Shown piece after piece: positions 8,030 to 52,116 of a stretch of DNA of 64,000 nucleotides. The first letter of the stretch is position 1. Each line of letters opens with the position of its first letter. The DNA lies in the NCBI GenBank assembly GCA_020152595.1, contig JAIGNY010002230.1, positions 903,501 to 967,500 of the forward strand, in the 5' to 3' direction. The translations under genes were made by a program, and so were the position numbers. The DNA comes from Chiridota heheva. Its lineage: Eukaryota; Echinodermata; Holothuroidea; Apodida; Chiridotidae. The notes under the pieces were generated by a model. It did not search any database, was not told the DNA's origin, and saw only the letters and a program-made list of their open reading frames with translations.

Positions 8030-9105
8030 TTAAAGGATTAGTTCAGGGGTCAAACAATGTCATCTTATATGAAAGAGGACTTCAAAAAAACAAAATGGGG
8101 AAAAAAGTATTCCAAAATCTTATTCCGCTAAAGAGATATTCAAGTTTAAAGCTCTGTCTTATCTGTGTAGAAATGACTGGTGTAGTGAGTCGACTATGGA
8201 AGGTTGGCGCTCTCACTCCTACATTCTTAGCCAGTGTTAATATATTTTACAATATGAATTATTTTTCTTGTAACTTTCTTTAGGTGCTGAATTATAATTC
8301 TCCTTACTAGATTCTGTTTTATTACTTTCCCGACATATCCAATGGTTTTTAAATTGCAGGACAATATGATAGAATACATAAAGATTTTGAGGAATCTGAG
8401 GCTGTGACATCACAACTAGTCTGATTTCAGTCATTTCTACACAAATAATACCAAATTGTAAACTTGAATATATTTACGGAATAAGATTTTTGAATGCTTT
8501 CTCCGCCATTTTGTTTCTTTCAAAGTCCTCAGTTCATATAAGATATATAATATGATAGAATACCTAAAGATTAAAAGAATTTGAGGCTGTGACGTGACAA
8601 CTAGTCTGATTTCAGTCGTTTCTACACAAATGATACCAAATTTTAAAGTTAACTATAATAACAGAATAAGATTTTTGAATGCTTTCTTCACAATTTTGTT
8701 TCTTTCAAAGTCATCACTTCATATAAGATATATATGATATGATAGAATACATACAGATTTTGAGGAATCTGGGGCTGTGACGTCACAACTAGTCTTATTT
8801 CAGTCGTTGTTACACATATGATACCAAATTTTAAACTTGAATATATTTGCGGAATAAGATTTTTGAATGCTTTCTTCACCATTTTGTTTCTTTCAAAGTC
8901 CTCAGTTCATATAAGATATATATGATATGATAGAATACAAATATTTTGAGGAATCTGAGGCTGTGACGTCACAAGTAGTCTGATTTCAGTCGTTTTTACA
9001 CAAATGATACCAAATTTTAAACATTAATATGATAACGGATAAGATTTTTGAATGCTTTCTTCGCCATTTTGTTTCTTTCAAAGTCCGCAGTTCGTATAAG
9101 ATATA
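8030..9105. mobile_element. TTAA-type foldback element, family A copy 1, right arm amplified
   Basis: The left end TTAAAGGATTAGTTCAGGGG leads into an arm (CTTATATGAAAGAGGACTTC, then AAAATCTTATTCCGCTAAAG) that reappears inverted downstream (CGGAATAAGATTTTTGAATG, AAGTCCTCAGTTCATATAAG). The right arm occurs four times head-to-tail at a period of about 186 bp, marked by GGCTGTGAC at about 8400, 8585, 8773 and 8959. The array ends about 70 bp before the last WDR1 exon. The small open frames in it are not genes. Confidence 0.75.
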
Positions 9106-24182: not shown

Positions 24183-27100
24183 TTATGCCCACTCTAAATG
24201 GTGACGTCGCTCATGTCGTTGCCACTCCTCCACTTGGGCAAAGGTCAGGTCACAATATCTACAATCGTAAATACTGCCCTCAGCGAGGTGCGGCACGGGA
24301 GAGTCACTCAGCTTCAAACTTTCAGAGGATACGCTCTCGTTCATATTGTCCGTTTCAAAAGATTGATTTAGATTCCGGTTGGACTGTGAGTGCGTACTCT
24401 TTGTTGATGGCGACATCTTTTTCTGTGATGGTCCGATAGATGGCACTCTTCGGTGGAGTCTTCTGTGGGAGGCGATACCTGATGACGTAGTGCAGGAGTA
24501 CATACACAGCTGGCATTTGAACTCCATCACGTAGTTGTGCTGGTCGAGATGGTTCCCCGCCTCATCAACCAAATGGGTCATGTACGGACAGAGACTGCAC
24601 TTGAATAAATTCTGTTCCGATATGACGTCGGTCGTTAGGTGGGTTTTTGAGTGGTCGCGGAGTGACAAAGTATCCGTCTCAACCTTTTGACACTGCTGGC
24701 ACGTCAAGGTTTCCTTATTTTTGGAATGCTTCTTTTCCAAGTGGTGCTGAAGCTCATTCAGAACCTGACTTTCGAAGGGACAGTGCTCACAAGCATAGGT
24801 CTCCCCACTGCTGTGCGTGCTGAGATGATTTTCGAGTTGATCCATGCTCGTAATCAGCCCACATTGGGGGCACTGCACAGATCTGTCGACCTTCTCCAAC
24901 ACATCTACGTCAAGCACTAGTTCTGCTTCCTTCCTGTCGAATAATATGTGAGAAGTGGATCCATTGTCTGTAAGACGTTTCACATCTCCTTTCTTCTCTT
25001 TCTTCCCACCTTCTTTTTTTACTGTTTCTTTTTTCACAACATGCACATCTATCAAATGTTTGGTCAAATCGACGACCGCATTACCAATGAAAGGACACCC
25101 TGTGCAAGAATACTTTTCAAAACGAGTCTTAAATGTGCTCGTCGCTTCCTCGCTGTTCTCGGACAAATCTATTGAATCCTCTTCTTCAGGCTTTTTCGGA
25201 TCTGACGTCATGTTGGCCAAAGCGGCCTCTGCGGTCACGTGACGGTTGTGAACATCAGCAAGATGGGCCTGTAAAAGCTTGGTGTTGGGGAATGTCAGGC
25301 AGCACTGATCGCACATTACATTGGAGAGCGAGATCTCGTGCTCAGCAACATGATCTTGAAGCTTTGAGTCTTGGAGAGTACAGAAGGAGCATTTGGAGCA
25401 GGTCAAAAGGTCAACACAGTGTGACTTGTAGTGTCGCTTCAAATGGTGCTTGTATGCCGTGGAGTATTCACACAGCTCGCAGGTGTACGGCTTCCGCTGC
25501 TCGTGAACAGTCTGAACGTGGCGAATCATAAACCTCTTTTCCACCGTCTGGTAGTTGCATTGATCACACTCCAACGTCACTTTGGTATGCTTCCTTAGAT
25601 GTTTCAACAGCACTCGGTAGTTCGGGCAAGAGCTTTCGCAAAGCTTACAATCAAACCTTGGTGCGCCATGATTTCTAATCAGGTGATTATCCAGATCTTC
25701 CAAGTTTCTCGCCATCCAGTTCTCACAGAGTTTGCAAACAAGGTCAGCATCAATGACCGGCTTGTCTCCACTAGCCCCTGGGGAAAATTTTCCTTTCAAT
25801 TTTTTCTTAATACCCTTTTTGATGGATGGATACGTGTTGTCGTAATAACTTCCCAAGGAGACCATGGTTTGCATCTGAAACAAATCCTCGTTGTCCCCCT
25901 CCTCATCAAACTCGTTCTCATTCCCGGCACCATCATGTTTCCGCTCCTTCTCTTCCCCAAACTTCCCTTCTTTCTTGCCGCTTGATTTTTTGCTTTTACT
26001 TTTCACAGATGATCTCTTGGCAGTAGGTATCATCTCCTCATCGATGATGAGCTCGCTCTCGGTATCCTCTGATTCCTGTTCCACTTCCATAGCAGCTTTG
26101 CAATTGATGAGGTGTTTTACAAGTTCTTTCGGTTTAGAAAACCCTTGGGAGCAAAGATTGCAGCAGTATGGATTCACATTCTGCATACTGACAATGGCGT
26201 CCGATTTTGTTGGAGCTTTTTTCTCATTGTGGGTCATCATGTGACGTGTGTAAGCCATCTTGGTAAAACACAGATATGGGCACTTGCTACAGGCGTACGA
26301 TTGTTTGACCGAATTGCCTGGTATAGCAGAAAGATTATGATTGGCTTTCACCTCACTTTTCTTCCCTGGAAAATTAGACTGATTATTTTGTACTGACAGG
26401 GACATTATGGCAGGATTATTTGGAAGCTCTCGGTGGGTTCTAAGATGTCTTGCAAGAAAGCACTGTTCTTTGATCACCTTGAAGCACATCTTACACTGAA
26501 ACTGATGACTGCTATTCACGAGTACTTTCTCGAAAAAAGCGACACAATCTATCTTTTCCTGTTTGAATGAGTTCATCACGGTAAATTTTGGTGCCTCTCT
26601 GGCATCAACTTGTGCAGGCTCTTTCTTAACTTTCACTAAATTATCACTCGCTTTGGTCTTTGCCAGCTGGATTTTTTCCAGGAGATTTCTCTCTTCTTTG
26701 TACACCTTGATGACATGCCGCTTATGAATATGCATGATGGCACTCCTTTGAGTCTTCTTCCTCATCCCACATTTCTTGCAAGTAAAGATAACTTTCTTTT
26801 TCGTGTTGCTGACTGAAATAATTGTTCGCAATTTTTTTGTCTGCTTCACCATCATCCTAGACACTGAATTCCTGCATAACTTATTCCAAAATCCTAAATT
26901 TTGCATAAATCGAAAATGATGTTTCCCAGACTTTCTGCTCTTCTTAGTGACCTTTCTTGATTGGATGAAAAACGGCCGAATAATTTTTTGCACTTTTTTG
27001 CAGCTCTTGAGAATTTCTTTTACACCTGCAATTTGCTGTTGAAATTCATTGTCTGCACCTGTTCCAGATACAACATGAGGAATTTTAGCCATATCTAACT

Positions 27101-30100
27101 GTTTGAACATTGTGTTGGTTAGGTTTAATGGACCGCTAAGCATACCCGCTGTGGAATCCTGCATCGGGTCATGATCGAGTCTGTAGTCTCTTCTCGCCTT
27201 TTTGCGCAACCCGTAATGCTTATTCGCGTCGTCCTCATCTTCAACTTCAACCTTAACTTCAGGCAGTTTCGCCATTTGCGCTTTTGCGATGTGCTCTGTC
27301 GATTTCTTAGAACTGGATACAAACTTCGTACCTGACACCCCTCCATGTAATTTTAGATGCCCACACAGCTGTCTGACATTCTTGAAAGCCTTGCCGCAAT
27401 AATTACACTTAAATGGGAGCTTCTGTTTGTTACGGCTGTGAGAATGCTTCTTGGACGATTTAGATTGCCGCCCTCTTTTGCCAGTGGTGGTATATTCTAC
27501 AGGTGTGACCATCACATTTTCCTCGCCGACAATCGAATGACTCTTTAAATGATTGACAAGGTCCTGGAAGATGTTAAACGCTTTTGGACAGTGCGTGCAC
27601 TGGTATACTTCAATCTTCTGCTTGTTGATCAACGGAGAATGCTGTTTCAGATGGCCGAACAATGACAGCGGTCTATCAAACGTTTTATGGCATTCCTTGC
27701 AAGTAAACACTCCTGTCTGCGTCATCAGTTTCAGTCGATTTTTCTTTATAATATCTTTTTTAACTGGAATTTTTCCGTCTTCTCCAAGGGCAATATCATG
27801 CTTTTGAGATTTTGCAGCATGTTTGCTAAGACCTTCTTTCTTGGTATGAACCCGATGCGCCAATTTTTTGCAAAGGTTGTTGAGTTTATATTCTCCTGGT
27901 TGTTTTGATGCCGTCTGATTCTGATACGATATTTGGTCGTAATTCTGGCTGTGGGACGTTTGAGCTTTTGAATAAGGCACGTCTGGTAAATAAGATACAG
28001 GACTCTTCAAACTACTTGTCACCAAAGTATGATGAAACTTTGCCTTACTTAAGGCAACATAATGATTCCTTTCTTTTATGGGTGGGGACGACGGCTCAGA
28101 AATTTGATTCTGCAAGACAAAATCTTCCCCTTCCTGAAATGAAAAATCTTTGATCTCCACAGACTCTATTTTGCGTTTCTTAAGACGACCATCAGTTGGT
28201 TTGGGCAAAAGAATTCTGGGTCGTGGTCCTGTAATCTGATAAACCGAAGTAATCTGAGGAACTATGACACTTTGTGAGTCACCTTGATTGTCATCTCCTT
28301 TTCCCACTGGAAGCTGAGGAGAGAGTTGATGGGGTATTTGCGGTGATATATGAGGCACGGAGAACTTACTTGAAGGGTCCGAGAACTGCGGCTGCCCTGG
28401 CGACTGCATGGCTGTGGCTTGGCTGGGAACCGTTCGGTGTCTGTGGTGATGATGTTCATGTTGCATGGCAGCTGCGTCTGCTTTCTGCTGCTGGTAGAGA
28501 GTTTGGTCTTGAGGTCGAGAGGGTGGCCTGTACTGATGGTACTTTAAAGGTCTGCTGCCATCTTTAAGTTGATTCACTTTAACGATATCCCCATTTTTGC
28601 TTCGGTCCTGACGTGCAATAGGGGGACTTGGCAACAGTAGTTGCTGTTGTGGGACAAAAATATGAGGCTGTTGGCTGTTGGGTGACAGCTGCCCAGTTGG
28701 TTGCCCCACTGGGGACATTTGCTGCTGTCGCTGTGACTTTCCCGATTGAGGATCACTCTGACTGTAAGGGACATACCTATGGGTGCCTCTTCGTGATCTG
28801 CTATGCTTTTTTGACACATGAGTAGTAGTCAAGTGTGCCATCATGCAGGATTTCTCAGTAGAGGCGTACTTACAATATCGACAGTTAAGAAGTTCCACCT
28901 CGACATTAGTCCCGCTAATTTTCTGCTGAATGGTGTGTCGACTCAAAAACTGGAGCAGTAACATTTTGTTGGTTCTAAACGTATTCTCAATATCTTGTGA
29001 ACTTTGACCTTGCCCTGGATCATCCTGGGGTTGGTACAGCCTCTGTGTGATCCCTTGATGAGGCTGGCTATAAATAATTTGTGGTTTTCTTGACGATTGC
29101 TTTAGTAATCCTGATAGATGCACAGATTGCCCTGATGAGGTTCGAATGTGTTCTGGAGAATTAAGTTGCCCTGGAGATATTTGTTGTTGTCCCGGAGATA
29201 TTTGTTGTTGTCCCGGAGAAACATGTGGTTGAATGATGATGGAATGCATTTGTTGGCCAGGGGAGGGAAGCTGTTGGTGCCCTGGGGAATGCATTTGCTG
29301 TACTGGGGAGGGCACCTGTTGTCTCTGACCCATCAAGTGGTGCGATGAAGATTGCAGCTCTTGTCGAGGGGAAATCTGAAGTTGTACATGTGAAAGATGT
29401 CGGGCTTGGGACAGTTTATTAGAATGTGCTGCTTGGAAATGTGAGGGTGGCGCTAACCTTGGATTCTTGATTACGTCAAAGCTTCTGGTTGGGGCATGGA
29501 CCATGCTTGTTTTATACTGCAATGTTAATGGCCTGGTGAGGTCCAGGACGACTTGACTGGAATTAGAGTGATGGGGTTCTGAATCTTTCTGTAGGGAGAC
29601 ACTTGAGCTCTGTTTATAAGATGACCTTTGACCTGCCGCACCACTGACAGAGAGATCCAGAGCACCACAGGATTCTTCCTCTATGACAACTGGTGGGTAC
29701 TTCGGTGTCGACGAATTTGATCTGCTTGATGACACTGACAAATCCAGAACTTCATCTTCACCACTAATTTCATTCACTGACGACCCCCTTGACAATGACA
29801 TAGTTGGCTGCGACACTACACTTGGTGGCGTTGTCACATGAGATCCAATTTGGTAAGACATTGCTGTACCATCCTCACTCTCTTGTAGTAACTCCTGATC
29901 AATTTTATCAAATTCAGCTTCAGGAGAATAAATTTTCTTCTTAGCCAGCCTATCAACGATGCTTGTCAGACTTTTTTTGTGTCTCATCACCATTGCGGGT
30001 TTACGACGAGCTGAGCCAGTGGCAGCGGCACGCCCTCCCTTTGATGATAGCGAAGCGAGATATTGCTCTTCTGTCATCCCATTCTCAATATACTGCACTT

Positions 30101-30281
30101 CTGTATAACCACCATCACCGTCGCCTGCTGGAATTTCTCCCAGCTCTGATTGGTAGTAGTAACCTTCCTGTATTTGAAATTCATTCTCATTTGCATAATC
30201 CATGGGGATCATCTCCATCTCTGTATTGTATTCCTCAAATTTCTGGATTGCAGTAGTTACCTCCATCTCTCCTGAATACAT
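24183..30281 (-). CDS. Very large multi-C2H2 zinc-finger protein (about 2,032 aa), orthologue not recognised
   Basis: This is probably a nuclear DNA-binding regulator. Numbering from the ATG at 30281-30279 (ACC before it), fingers begin at Cys 467, 861, 895, 959, 1168, 1263, 1331, 1374, 1516, 1545, 1572, 1601, 1628, 1657, 1726, 1804, 1831, 1861, 1895, 1923 and 2007. There are 21 in all; the one at 1374 ends in Cys (CCHC). Linkers are mostly not TGEKP. Short CtBP-like motifs occur at 178-182 (VLDLS), 207-211 (ALDLS), 245-249 (VLDLT), 1051-1055 (PLNLT) and 1703-1707 (SIDLS). Residues about 318-378 are SPGQQ-type repeats. VKVE (Lys 1010) and VKKE motifs are SUMO-like. Basic stretches such as LKKRK are candidate nuclear signals. 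All of this lies in one exon. The frame stays open upstream to an acceptor at 30345, so translation could begin in an earlier exon. Codons before the ATG include a TTG but no ATG. Confidence 0.9.
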   Translation of the reverse strand: MYSGEMEVTTAIQKFEEYNTEMEMIPMDYANENEFQIQEGYYYQSELGEIPAGDGDGGYTEVQYIENGMTEEQYLASLSSKGGRAAATGSARRKPAMVMRHKKSLTSIVDRLAKKKIYSPEAEFDKIDQELLQESEDGTAMSYQIGSHVTTPPSVVSQPTMSLSRGSSVNEISGEDEVLDLSVSSSRSNSSTPKYPPVVIEEESCGALDLSVSGAAGQRSSYKQSSSVSLQKDSEPHHSNSSQVVLDLTRPLTLQYKTSMVHAPTRSFDVIKNPRLAPPSHFQAAHSNKLSQARHLSHVQLQISPRQELQSSSHHLMGQRQQVPSPVQQMHSPGHQQLPSPGQQMHSIIIQPHVSPGQQQISPGQQQISPGQLNSPEHIRTSSGQSVHLSGLLKQSSRKPQIIYSQPHQGITQRLYQPQDDPGQGQSSQDIENTFRTNKMLLLQFLSRHTIQQKISGTNVEVELLNCRYCKYASTEKSCMMAHLTTTHVSKKHSRSRRGTHRYVPYSQSDPQSGKSQRQQQMSPVGQPTGQLSPNSQQPHIFVPQQQLLLPSPPIARQDRSKNGDIVKVNQLKDGSRPLKYHQYRPPSRPQDQTLYQQQKADAAAMQHEHHHHRHRTVPSQATAMQSPGQPQFSDPSSKFSVPHISPQIPHQLSPQLPVGKGDDNQGDSQSVIVPQITSVYQITGPRPRILLPKPTDGRLKKRKIESVEIKDFSFQEGEDFVLQNQISEPSSPPIKERNHYVALSKAKFHHTLVTSSLKSPVSYLPDVPYSKAQTSHSQNYDQISYQNQTASKQPGEYKLNNLCKKLAHRVHTKKEGLSKHAAKSQKHDIALGEDGKIPVKKDIIKKNRLKLMTQTGVFTCKECHKTFDRPLSLFGHLKQHSPLINKQKIEVYQCTHCPKAFNIFQDLVNHLKSHSIVGEENVMVTPVEYTTTGKRGRQSKSSKKHSHSRNKQKLPFKCNYCGKAFKNVRQLCGHLKLHGGVSGTKFVSSSKKSTEHIAKAQMAKLPEVKVEVEDEDDANKHYGLRKKARRDYRLDHDPMQDSTAGMLSGPLNLTNTMFKQLDMAKIPHVVSGTGADNEFQQQIAGVKEILKSCKKVQKIIRPFFIQSRKVTKKSRKSGKHHFRFMQNLGFWNKLCRNSVSRMMVKQTKKLRTIISVSNTKKKVIFTCKKCGMRKKTQRSAIMHIHKRHVIKVYKEERNLLEKIQLAKTKASDNLVKVKKEPAQVDAREAPKFTVMNSFKQEKIDCVAFFEKVLVNSSHQFQCKMCFKVIKEQCFLARHLRTHRELPNNPAIMSLSVQNNQSNFPGKKSEVKANHNLSAIPGNSVKQSYACSKCPYLCFTKMAYTRHMMTHNEKKAPTKSDAIVSMQNVNPYCCNLCSQGFSKPKELVKHLINCKAAMEVEQESEDTESELIIDEEMIPTAKRSSVKSKSKKSSGKKEGKFGEEKERKHDGAGNENEFDEEGDNEDLFQMQTMVSLGSYYDNTYPSIKKGIKKKLKGKFSPGASGDKPVIDADLVCKLCENWMARNLEDLDNHLIRNHGAPRFDCKLCESSCPNYRVLLKHLRKHTKVTLECDQCNYQTVEKRFMIRHVQTVHEQRKPYTCELCEYSTAYKHHLKRHYKSHCVDLLTCSKCSFCTLQDSKLQDHVAEHEISLSNVMCDQCCLTFPNTKLLQAHLADVHNRHVTAEAALANMTSDPKKPEEEDSIDLSENSEEATSTFKTRFEKYSCTGCPFIGNAVVDLTKHLIDVHVVKKETVKKEGGKKEKKGDVKRLTDNGSTSHILFDRKEAELVLDVDVLEKVDRSVQCPQCGLITSMDQLENHLSTHSSGETYACEHCPFESQVLNELQHHLEKKHSKNKETLTCQQCQKVETDTLSLRDHSKTHLTTDVISEQNLFKCSLCPYMTHLVDEAGNHLDQHNYVMEFKCQLCMYSCTTSSGIASHRRLHRRVPSIGPSQKKMSPSTKSTHSQSNRNLNQSFETDNMNESVSSESLKLSDSPVPHLAEGSIYDCRYCDLTFAQVEEWQRHERRHHLEWA

Positions 30282-30344
30282 GGTGTATGCCGTGGTAACT
30301 TTCTGGCAGTGCAAAAATGCTTGGAAGTCCTTTCTTTCACCAAC

Positions 30345-30362
30345 CTGTAAAAAAAAAAAAAA
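30345..30362 (-). promoter_or_regulatory. 3' splice acceptor of the zinc-finger exon
   Basis: On the minus strand a run of about 14 T is followed by ACAG, and then by the exon base at 30344. From 30344 to the ATG the frame is open for 21 codons (starting VGERKDFQAF). The segment may be 5' UTR or the end of a longer coding region. Confidence 0.6.
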
Positions 30363-30648
30363 TGAAACTATTTTATGTTTGCAAAACTTTTTTTTAATTG
30401 TGATCCAGTTTGCTTTATATTGTCTGACTTTTATTTCGTGAGAGATAAGCCCTTATACTACTGTAATCTACGTGAAAACCTTAGTAATATGCAGCATAAT
30501 CTGAAGATAAATGCTCAAACATCTTTGTCAATATTTTTTTTTCATGATTCATGAGAGGGGGGAGAACAAGCAATATGTGGGGATGAAAGCGTAGTAAATA
30601 TTTGGCTTTCCTGAAACCCCCCTCCCACCTCCCTGAAACATGTTTGTC

Positions 30649-48795: not shown

Positions 48796-50624
48796 AACTT
48801 TGTACAATATGACTGTACAATAAGTTTCAAAAAAATGGTCCCGCTAAATTAAACCTGAAATTCCCTATGTAACGAACTCACTTTTAAACCAAATTGGATC
48901 AGTTTGATACGTTGGTTTGTGGTGGGTGAACCTACTTACAAGTTAGCAGAGGTTACCTGCTATTCGGTTTTCCAATCAAAATTTAACCAATCATATGTAG
49001 ATAAAGAAATTATCAGCAAATTCTGATGAAAATTTTGTGCTATTTTTATTGTTTTTTGGTAGATTTACAACAATTTAGCTAATTGTGCGTTTAGTTTCAA
49101 ATGTACATAGAATTTTGAGATTCAATTGCCCTCTCCTCCTAGCTTTCACCTACCTGTGGAGTGACCAACATCCAAACATAAGGCATGGGTGTTGTCAGGG
49201 AGATGGAAAGGGTCGTACGACCCCAAAAAAATATTCCCTCAGCAACCCCTACAATCCGAAAGGCTGGCTACACCCCTCAAGGGGGTCCAACTGTGACTTT
49301 CATAATCAAGATCCAGGGGTATACAAGGGACTTTGATTATGTAATTTCTGAAAAAGTGGTGGAGGCATGAACCTTAACCCTCCCCCCTTCTCCCCCACCA
49401 TGCAACTTCCTCCTCTCTTGTCTTCTCCAATTAAACCAAAAATCAGGAGCTTAGTATGGTACACATTATCACCATTAGGACCATGGGTGGATCCAGGATT
49501 TCAAAAAGGGATGGGAGTAAAAAATCAAAGTCATAACAAAATAACTGAATTTAAAAAAAATGTAAATCGCAACCGTCCAGATCAGACTTTTAAATTTCAA
49601 AATACGTCCGACTGCAATTTTTTTTTACAAGTTGGGTTTAACTCTTAATTTTCGCTTTAAAAAGTGCTCAAATTGATAAATTTTCCCCCGCTGAATCTGC
49701 CCTGGAGGCTTGAAGAATAACTAATCTTCAGTTATATTGTTGGCATTAAAATCCAAAATAATATTGCTGGCAGAAAAATGTGAAGTAAAACTGCAAACAT
49801 TTAATAATGTATGAAAATAGCAATGGAGAAGGGTTCAAACCAAATTAAAAGGGGGATTTGTTAAACTCCTTAATCCCATTGGTTGCCCATTATGCACCAA
49901 GGTCATATTTTGATGACCCAACACAAGGTATTTTTTAAAATATTTTTTTAAATTATTTCCTCCCCTGCTCTCTGCTTCTCCCTCCCACTCTCCCTCCCCA
50001 ACAAAGTCAATGTGGATGCACTCACAAGATCTACAGTAGCATAAACTACAGACACCCACTCAGCAGCAAGCTTTAATCAGTTTAATAAAATATTAAAAGA
50101 TATACATCAACACTATATACTTAAGTGTTTAAGATATTTTTTTAAACAAGTACAAAAGTTCGCCAAAATTGGTTAATAATTGAAAATTGTTGCTACTGTT
50201 TTTTGAACAATCAGACTTCTAAGTAAAATAATTCCATTATTTTTATTTTCTACCAGATTTCTATGAAATTTAAAAAAAAAAAAAAAAAATTGTACAAAAT
50301 TTAAACAAAACTGGTTAATAATTGAAAATTTTTGCTTTTGTCTTCATATTCAAATTTGTGAACAATCAGACTTTTAAGTAAAATAATTCCATTATTTTTA
50401 TTTTCTACCAGATTTCTATGAAAGGGAGATTGTACTGTATTTTCTTTTGGAAAAAAATAGTATTATCATCATTTTACTAAGGAAAGAAATTTAAAGGGGC
50501 TGGTGGCCAAAAAGTGAGTGCGCATTTATCTCGAGTCCCATGAATATCGAACACACTTTTCATCCATGTCATGGCACTGGAAACCTTTGGTTCAAATTTA
50601 TCATAATTATTTCTTATGATTACT
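48796..50624. other. Gene-free stretch
   Basis: A diverged direct repeat of about 120 bp occurs at 50160-50280 and 50290-50425 (AACAATCAGACTT then AAGTAAAATAATTCCATTAT). Nothing else was recognised. Confidence 0.45.
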
Positions 50625-50976
50625 TAAGTCTATTTTATATGAAAAAGAACTTGAAAAGAAACAAACTGGTGAAAAGAGCATTCAAAAACCATTTTCTATT
50701 CAGGAGATACTGTACATGTGTGTAAAGTTTGGTATGATTTCTGTAGAAACGACTGAAATCAGACTAGTTGTGACATAACAGCATCAGATTCCTCAAAGTC
50801 TTTATGTATTCTATCATATTTTTGTCCTAGCTGCAATTTTGTGGTTTAAAAACCATTGGATAATCAGGAAAATAGTAAAATAGAATCTAGTAAGGATAAT
50901 TATAATTTACTACCTGAAGAAAGTTTTGAGGAAAAATGAATCAAATAGTATAAAAGTTAATTTTCTTTTAAATACA

Positions 50977-51085
50977 TTAACCCTTACTCTACCACGCGGC
51001 GATATTATCGCCGTTTTGGGTGCCCCGTCTTTGGCCCCGCCTCCCGAGCGCATTTTCAAAATAGTGCTGGTAGTGTAAGGGTTAA
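50977..51085. mobile_element. piggyBac-like MITE, trimer copy 1 (109 bp)
   Basis: Ends TTAACCCTTACTCTACCA and TGGTAGTGTAAGGGTTAA are inverted with one mismatch. The interior has a near-perfect hairpin, GGCGATA-T-TATCGCC. TTAACCCTT ends are typical of piggyBac-type elements. GC-rich compared with its host. Confidence 0.82.
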
Positions 51086-51466
51086 TCAACACGCGACATA
51101 AGCGCCAACCCGAAAATATAGGCAGCATGATCCCGGTGGGCGGCCCAGCGGGTCCCGAAAGCGGAAGGGGCCTGACTTTTCTGCCTGAAAGACAGAGGAC
51201 CCTTCAATAATCACGCCTTGATTAACCCTTACTCTACCACGCGGCGATATTATCGCCGTTTTGGGTGCCCTGTCTTTGGCCCCGCCTCCCGAGCGCATTT
51301 TTAAAATAGTGCTGGTAGAGCAAGGGTTAATCAACCCGCGACATATATGCCAACCCGAAAATATAGGCAGCATGATCCCGGTGGGCGGCCCAGCGGGTCC
51401 CGAAAGCGGAAGTGGTCCGACTTTTCTGCCTGAAAGACAGAGGACCCTTCAATAATCACGCCTTGA
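51086..51466. repeat. 136-bp spacers of the MITE trimer (51086-51221 and 51331-51466)
   Basis: Each spacer carries CAACCCGAAAATATAGGCAG, GGTGGGCGGCCCAGCGGGTC and AAGACAGAGGACCCTTCAAT and ends in CACGCCTTGA before the next TTAA. The two differ at only a few positions. The range given includes copy 2. Not found elsewhere in this window. Confidence 0.85.
51222..51330. mobile_element. piggyBac-like MITE, trimer copy 2 (109 bp)
   Basis: Same as copy 1 with a few changes (right end TGGTAGAGCAAGGGTTAA, TTTTTAAAATAG in place of TTTTCAAAATAG). It is separated from each neighbour by an almost identical 136-bp spacer. Confidence 0.85.
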
Positions 51467-51575
51467 TTAACCCTTACTCTACCACGCGGCGATATTATTG
51501 CCGTTTTGGGTGCCCCGTCTTTGGCCCCGCCTCCCGAGCGCATTTTCAAAATAGTGCTGGTAGAGTAAGGGTTAA
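51467..51575. mobile_element. piggyBac-like MITE, trimer copy 3 (109 bp)
   Basis: Ends TTAACCCTTACTCTACCA and TGGTAGAGTAAGGGTTAA are perfect 18-bp inverted repeats. The hairpin has one change (TATTGCC). It borders resumed family A sequence on its right. Confidence 0.87.
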
Positions 51576-52116
51576 CAAGTGTAGAGGTGAATGTACAGAT
51601 GAGGGCGCCACCCTTTCATAATAGACTTACTACACCAGTCATTTCCGCACAGATTAGACAAAGCTTTAAACTTGAATATTTCCTTAACATAAATAATCAT
51701 TTTTATTTTATTTTTATTTCGTAATTGCTTTTGTTCACCATTTTGTTTCTTTTGAAGTCCTCTTTCATTTAAGATAAACTTGCTTGACCCCTGAAGTAAT
51801 CCTTTGGGTAATTTTTCAATGACACAAGTATCCAAAATTAGACTTGTTTTATTTCAAAATTCCCTCGACTTAAGCAAAAAAGATGCCCTCGCTTTTTAGA
51901 CTGAGAACTCCACAATAACAATAAAAATTTGAACAGTCCTTCTATTCAATTTGGCATCAAGAATCAGCCATACATGTAAGTTGAAAACTAAATATGACAT
52001 TTTTAAAATTAAAAGGCTGCCCCATCTCCCCCTCCCTCCCCCATCCAGAATGTTATGTTTTTGGTAAAGCAGCATAAAGAAAACATTATGTAACTGACCA
52101 TAGACCATAAAACCTG

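Follow-up and report, generated by a model that had tools for sequence, protein, structure and literature searches.

A tandem MITE trimer of Chiridota heheva as a probable copy of a dispersed composite TTAA element with near-clonal units

In a 64,000-nucleotide stretch of the Chiridota heheva genome (assembly GCA_020152595.1, contig JAIGNY010002230.1, positions 903,501 to 967,500 of the forward strand; hereafter the window), three copies of a miniature inverted-repeat transposable element (MITE), termed M, alternate with two copies of a spacer, termed S, in the order M-S-M-S-M at positions 50977-51575. We interpret this block, with a probability of roughly 0.72, as a copy of a composite, non-autonomous DNA element of the form M(SM)n, which is moved whole and reset from a single M-S unit. 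Blocks of whole MITEs and spacer occupy many unrelated sites of the genome; most of them are bounded by a MITE end with TTAA on either side, and the units within each block are nearly clonal. Mobilization of M(SM)n blocks as composites is supported by a spacer that is repeated genome-wide and by TTAA-bounded M(SM)n blocks in unrelated flanks. The trimer in the window, noted in a preliminary description, is not a special event but a typical representative of a large family.

Each M is 109 bp long, with the TTAA at both ends counted in, and each S is 136 bp, with an M-to-M period of exactly 245 bp (Table 1); these dimensions and the 18-bp inverted ends had been described correctly to the base. 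M starts with TTAACCCTTACTCTACCA and ends with its inverse, with one mismatch in two of the six ends. In the window, the 18-bp end has six matches with up to three mismatches (four exact, two with one mismatch), compared to 0.07 expected and at most two in 100 shuffles. The short inverted ends starting with CC(C/T)T after TTAA, together with the small size, fit a piggyBac-type MITE (motif as in PMC2872659), and so does the TTAA target duplication, seen at one empty site and at the outer ends of arrays elsewhere (both described below). The three M copies are closely alike, M1 and M2 differing at four sites, M1 and M3 at two, and M2 and M3 at four. The block has a G+C content of ~0.5-0.57 and lies in AT-rich flanks, and the rest of the window holds no further M or S pieces at an expectation value (E) of 0.01.

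Searches of the genome (1.10 Gb in 3,744 contigs) returned 1,480 occurrences of a 24-base spacer core with up to two mismatches and 2,883 occurrences of a 28-base M core, compared to none for either reversed control pattern. The spacer had been proposed for testing as unique DNA, a result that would have spoken against composite mobilization; with 1,480 cores it is not unique. The M core recovers 118 of 140 M units and the S core 23 of 34 S units. Subtracting spacer cores from M cores gives a rough ~1,400 separate M-ended loci, an estimate that we do not rely on because the two sensitivities differ. For the 20-base right end of M, 4,442 exact matches were counted, which indicates that elements related to M but with other cores exist. 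The first 100 of these places (contigs C1 to C47) form 67 clusters, 42 single and 25 multiple, and the exact M core is found in three of the single clusters versus 18 of the multiple ones. With the 599-bp block as query, the genome yielded at least 59 matches, for which 40 of 3,356 candidates were scored; these 40 places were picked by likeness to the trimer and hold no information on the frequency of n. Outside the genome, there were no matches in viral contigs and none in phages or plasmids; an exact 20-mer in a bacterial contig was taken as chance, as the inverted partner end is absent from the 401 bases read. An Rfam search of positions 50900-51700 gave one sub-threshold match only (22.5 bits against a cut-off of 90).

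The form of the arrays was assessed in a sample chosen by the exact spacer core only, which comprises 66 arrays from 76 of 100 listed places. Of the other 24 places, 12 fall within six loci collected before, a pentamer and five trimers, and 12 were left unfetched. These omissions bias the sample slightly towards dimers, and one array, at contig C803, is counted twice in it (L115 and L116). It contains 42 M-ended arrays, 11 arrays cut by short fetches, eight degenerate arrays and five without one end M, such that 42 of the 55 arrays lying wholly inside the fetched stretches have the form M(SM)n. Among the M-ended arrays, 33 are intact (18 with two Ms, 13 with three and two with four) and nine have a truncated unit. 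None of the 66 arrays is a free spacer without any M piece. S itself, with its TCAA and TTGA termini, was considered as a TTAA element in its own right and rejected, since its ends match over only about four bases by eye and no S stands without an M piece in the sample.

The block query gave 30 loci, 22 of them distinct, and M is present at every end that lies within its contig. In a set of 67 arrays selected as complete and M-ended, the left end is TTAA in 66 and the right end in 65; 18 of these arrays have two Ms, 41 have three, four have four and four have five, although the 41 trimers are uninformative on the frequency of n. A genome search for dimers and longer forms had been suggested; such forms exist, from dimers through pentamers to one array with no fewer than 26 Ms, and the trimer is therefore no fixed unit. 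This set and the variant tests below (on 56 arrays, 35 trimers, 43 loci and 59 loci) leave aside arrays with a truncated or missing unit and nine loci of the long array at contig C3424, namely eight overlapping stretches and L003; the eight stretches are also left out of the 22 loci and of the 18 trimers below. All five arrays without one end M (L053, L065, L083, L113 and L118) have an exact TTAA where S meets unrelated sequence, the result expected if an end M had been cleanly excised, and piggyBac excision is described as usually precise in the available part of one report (PMC2872659). At L087, one TTAA is common to two head-to-head Ms, and insertion of one element at another's end is therefore possible. 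Two further loci, L041 and L029 (C2883, positions 231902 and 240899), carry the same trimer and flanks ~9 kb apart with 99.5% identity over 2.6 kb, and represent either a recent segmental duplication or both alleles assembled.

Comparison of the units revealed that they are alike by locus and not by position. Among the first 18 trimers (16 used, as two have a spacer that is not 136 bp), spacers differ at a mean of 2.75 sites within a locus, compared to 5.41 between loci at the same place and 5.43 at different places. In 35 trimers, 65 variants are common to both spacers (mean 7.7 and largest 24 in 1000 shuffles) and 23 to all three Ms (shuffle mean 2.1, largest 7), and S1 and S2 differ at 2.46 sites versus 5.71 in shuffled pairs. 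In 68 M units taken from the first loci, position 86 alone has a commonest base below 90%; A, C and T are each frequent there and G occurs, but most loci are uniform, including 35 of 41 trimers (shuffle mean 3.2, largest 10) and 17 of 18 dimers (shuffle mean 5.9, largest 13), the remaining dimer being gapped. Dimers, which have one S each, have 17 variants common to both Ms (shuffle mean 4.2, largest 11), or seven when the position-86 column is removed (shuffle mean 0.9, largest 6). This uniformity indicates that each dimer probably arose with its two ends already alike.

The distribution of variants among loci points the same way. In 43 loci with arrays of at least three Ms, 32 of 54 variant kinds, each present in all units of an array or in all but one in some arrays, are confined to one locus. 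Across 56 arrays, 119 variants are carried by every unit, 274 by a single unit and 15 by some but not all, a class that two-spacer arrays cannot show for S. Moreover, M state and spacer type are associated across 59 loci (as extreme in 7 of 500 shuffles). The subfamily defined by S 22C/74C/79A/131T and M 86T contains both the dimer L081 and the trimers L029, L043, L047, L066 and L105, and n is therefore not strictly inherited. Because the units are alike by locus, with the Ms of dimers included, each array was probably made or homogenized from one unit around the time of insertion; copies within a block that appear to derive from one unit are unusual for a cut-and-paste element. Composite mobilization and post-insertion amplification had been set out as alternatives. 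The 1,480 spacer cores and the M(SM)n blocks at TTAA support mobilization, but the choice between the two does not hold, since the units of each block share locus-specific variants and the copy number varies (two to five, and at least 26); amplification contributes too.

In the mechanism that we propose, M is a TTAA element with piggyBac-type ends and S its passenger. A piggyBac-type transposase would most likely recognize the outermost M ends and move the whole block between TTAA sites, and at about the time of each insertion one M-S unit would serve to renew both the copy number and the sequence of the block. The likeliest route would be breaks at M ends repaired by unequal M-M pairing on the sister chromatid, which would duplicate, remove and convert M-S units. 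Occasionally an end M would leave alone with the TTAA restored cleanly, as the pattern at the five loci without one end M suggests; excision-break repair is favored because such loci are also accounted for. Exchange in place is suggested by L049, with an a-b-a-b-a pattern at two M sites as from unequal exchange of a trimer, and by L026 and L032, with variants common to adjacent pairs of units. The enzyme is most likely of piggyBac type, given 117 matches to this transposase family in the genome (best E 2.3e-87), several of them unbroken frames of 450-680 aa; the family has no matches in 14 control genomes.

Several findings weigh against this interpretation. None of the 117 transposase matches is tied to M ends, and the eight degenerate arrays of the 66 sampled match no simple form. 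In 39 of the 42 single clusters, an exact M right end stands without an exact M core, such that this end is common to a wider group of elements. Of 104 odd-one-out changes in the 35 trimers, 55 lie in the middle M, compared to 31 in M1 and 18 in M3 (binomial p 4e-5); 11 of the 55 are gap columns, six of them in L071. The two spacers, in contrast, are changed equally (45 and 42); the outer ends may have been kept by function, or the middle copy may have suffered recombination damage. In addition, L002, L010 and L011 all have the change C81T in their middle M, a hint that a few trimers share an ancestor that was already a trimer.

A possible, though clearly less probable, explanation is that recombination between neighboring Ms yields a circle of a single M-S unit, which rolling replication extends into a uniform concatemer, and transposase inserts M(SM)n pieces cut from it, such that uniform units and variable n both precede insertion. 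It agrees well with the locus variants common to all units, both Ms of dimers included, where local exchange has little to act on; with only 15 partial variants compared to 274 private ones; and with the dimer L081 and five trimers of one subfamily, in which n appears to have been reset between copies. However, no circle was observed, the patterns at L049, L026 and L032 suggest exchange within loci too, and the excess of changes in the middle M is not predicted. We slightly prefer excision-break repair to this circular intermediate. A little more doubtful is a related proposal of a DNA-only element comparable to those with long terminal repeats, whose end repeats would be made identical at birth via a circle or concatemer of one M and one S, and of which a piggyBac-type transposase would insert a block of variable length.

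Far less likely is repeated transposition of a single master trimer by the ordinary cut-and-paste route. Trimers are frequent among the best matches, where the query itself was a trimer, and C81T occurs in the middle M of three loci; yet between loci, spacers from matching places are not more alike than spacers from different places, variants are shared within loci far above shuffles, and n varies inside one subfamily. The locus-wise likeness of spacers contradicts the master trimer as a general account, which may hold for a few sibling loci. It is just as improbable that a simple 245-bp satellite had its pieces scattered by chance breakage or ectopic recombination: the long array at C3424 and the degenerate one at C803 would suit it, but breakage predicts cuts in random phase, whereas 42 of 55 arrays are M-ended and five more end in clean TTAA, and the empty site described below has a single pre-insertion TTAA, so that a simple satellite is contradicted for most dispersed copies sampled.

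The array at C3424 has 26 Ms in 6.3 kb and runs to the contig end, which makes 26 a minimum. Long 245-bp arrays without TTAA borders had been named as the sign of a satellite; a long head-to-tail array does occur here, though not in most dispersed copies sampled, but it begins with TTAA-M after unrelated sequence, and the description as a simple satellite thus misfits the dispersed copies. The tandem array at C803 (740370-741470 and 742520-743620) is degenerate and has the same spacer and M core with different M ends, the left end being eight bases shorter and the right end replaced in three aligned units. It is possibly an ancestor or a decayed sister branch of the mobile family.

The closest known systems appear, by analogy, to be the KolobokP composites and the coral CMITE arrays. 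According to the available part of the KolobokP report (PMC9587614), an internal segment is enclosed by direct repeats, each bearing short inverted ends of its own, and single repeats, (repeat-internal)n-repeat multimers and forms without one end repeat exist, the single repeats and multimers usually carrying target-site duplications. The family described here likewise has end repeats with their own inverted ends and multimers with TTAA target duplications. They differ in that KolobokP end repeats are ~450 or 660 bp and the internal part encodes a DDD/E transposase and a His-Me nuclease, whereas M (109 bp) and S (136 bp) are too short to encode either protein. Junctions of abutted internal parts have 3-4 bp deletions in KolobokP, compared to the clean TTAA left by end-M loss, and the M(SM)n block ends are of piggyBac type (TTAA-CCC), unlike those of KolobokP, as far as the accessible portion of that report describes them (PMC9587614).

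The coral CMITEs, in the part of the source available (PMC2872659), are piggyBac-type MITEs of ~100 bp whose ends carry TTAA and CCC; tandem arrays are formed by some of them, one with gaps whose sequences are also alike. CMITE cores are better conserved than ends between families, which the C803 array, with its core kept and ends differing, recalls; CMITE-IN, a CMITE within another TTAA-ended element, seems mobile (PMC2872659, same part). Only a small number of sequence reads showed these arrays, which were interpreted as replication slippage, and the available text mentions no family of M-ended blocks dispersed over many TTAA sites of a genome; we liken the two by description (PMC2872659). 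MITEs and tandem repeats also intergrade in the models for Xstir, miDNA4 and Angel, as partly available (PMC12628747), but the repeats of Xstir and miDNA4 lie inside the MITE or come from its inner sequence, whereas here whole MITEs form both the repeat and the outer ends. At Atlantic cod inversion breakpoints, the excerpted report (PMC12368964) likewise has MITEs in tandem, though these are hAT-derived, of another superfamily, and form long inverted tandem structures. A literature search found no report of a genome-wide piggyBac-type M(SM)n family with clonal ends, which is weak evidence of absence, as most subscription papers lay outside its coverage.

Double insertion of transposons is a known seed of satellites. 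The block family bears on the open question of how satellites originate and how short tandem arrays become scattered through chromosomes: with more than 1,000 spacer copies in blocks of known ends, target site and readable copy number, the order of copying, insertion and loss is directly testable. It would also extend the composite architecture of KolobokP to a piggyBac-type system of MITE and passenger only.

The block lies inside an older repeat, family A, whose limits were drawn from copies near 8.0-9.1, 34.7-35.3 and 39.6-40.3 kb of the window. As had been stated, the copy at ~8.23 kb has no block and one TTAA, the empty site reading AAATATATTAACA on the reverse strand; by comparison with it, the block stands in place of one TTAA. 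The copy at ~34.88 kb has GTAA at the matching place, and in the copy at ~39.80 kb the place is lost; the block is absent from all three other copies, and an intact TTAA is present in one of the three.

Table 1. Features of the trimer block and of its host repeat, in window positions
Feature	Positions	Strand	Remarks
M1 (109-bp piggyBac-type MITE)	50977..51085	+	18-bp terminal inverted repeats; one mismatch in the right one
S1 (136-bp spacer, TCAA...TTGA between the TTAAs of M1 and M2)	51086..51221	+	genome-wide repeat
M2 (second MITE copy)	51222..51330	+	right end with one mismatch; 4 differences from M1
S2 (second spacer)	51331..51466	+	7/136 differences from S1
M3 (third MITE copy)	51467..51575	+	2 differences from M1
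Left TTAA, target-site duplication of the whole block	50977..50980	.	
Right TTAA, target-site duplication of the whole block	51572..51575	.	
Family A repeat, older, host of the inserted block	50624..51805 (approximate limits)	+	BLAST pieces, ~66-88% identity
Matching empty site (other family A copy with a single TTAA and the block absent)	about 8226..8245	-	

Two minor features of the window were also observed. The part of family A at 8364-9105 is itself tandem, with about four 185-bp units. On the minus strand, an open frame of 2,089 residues with matches to C2H2 zinc fingers extends over 24183-30452.
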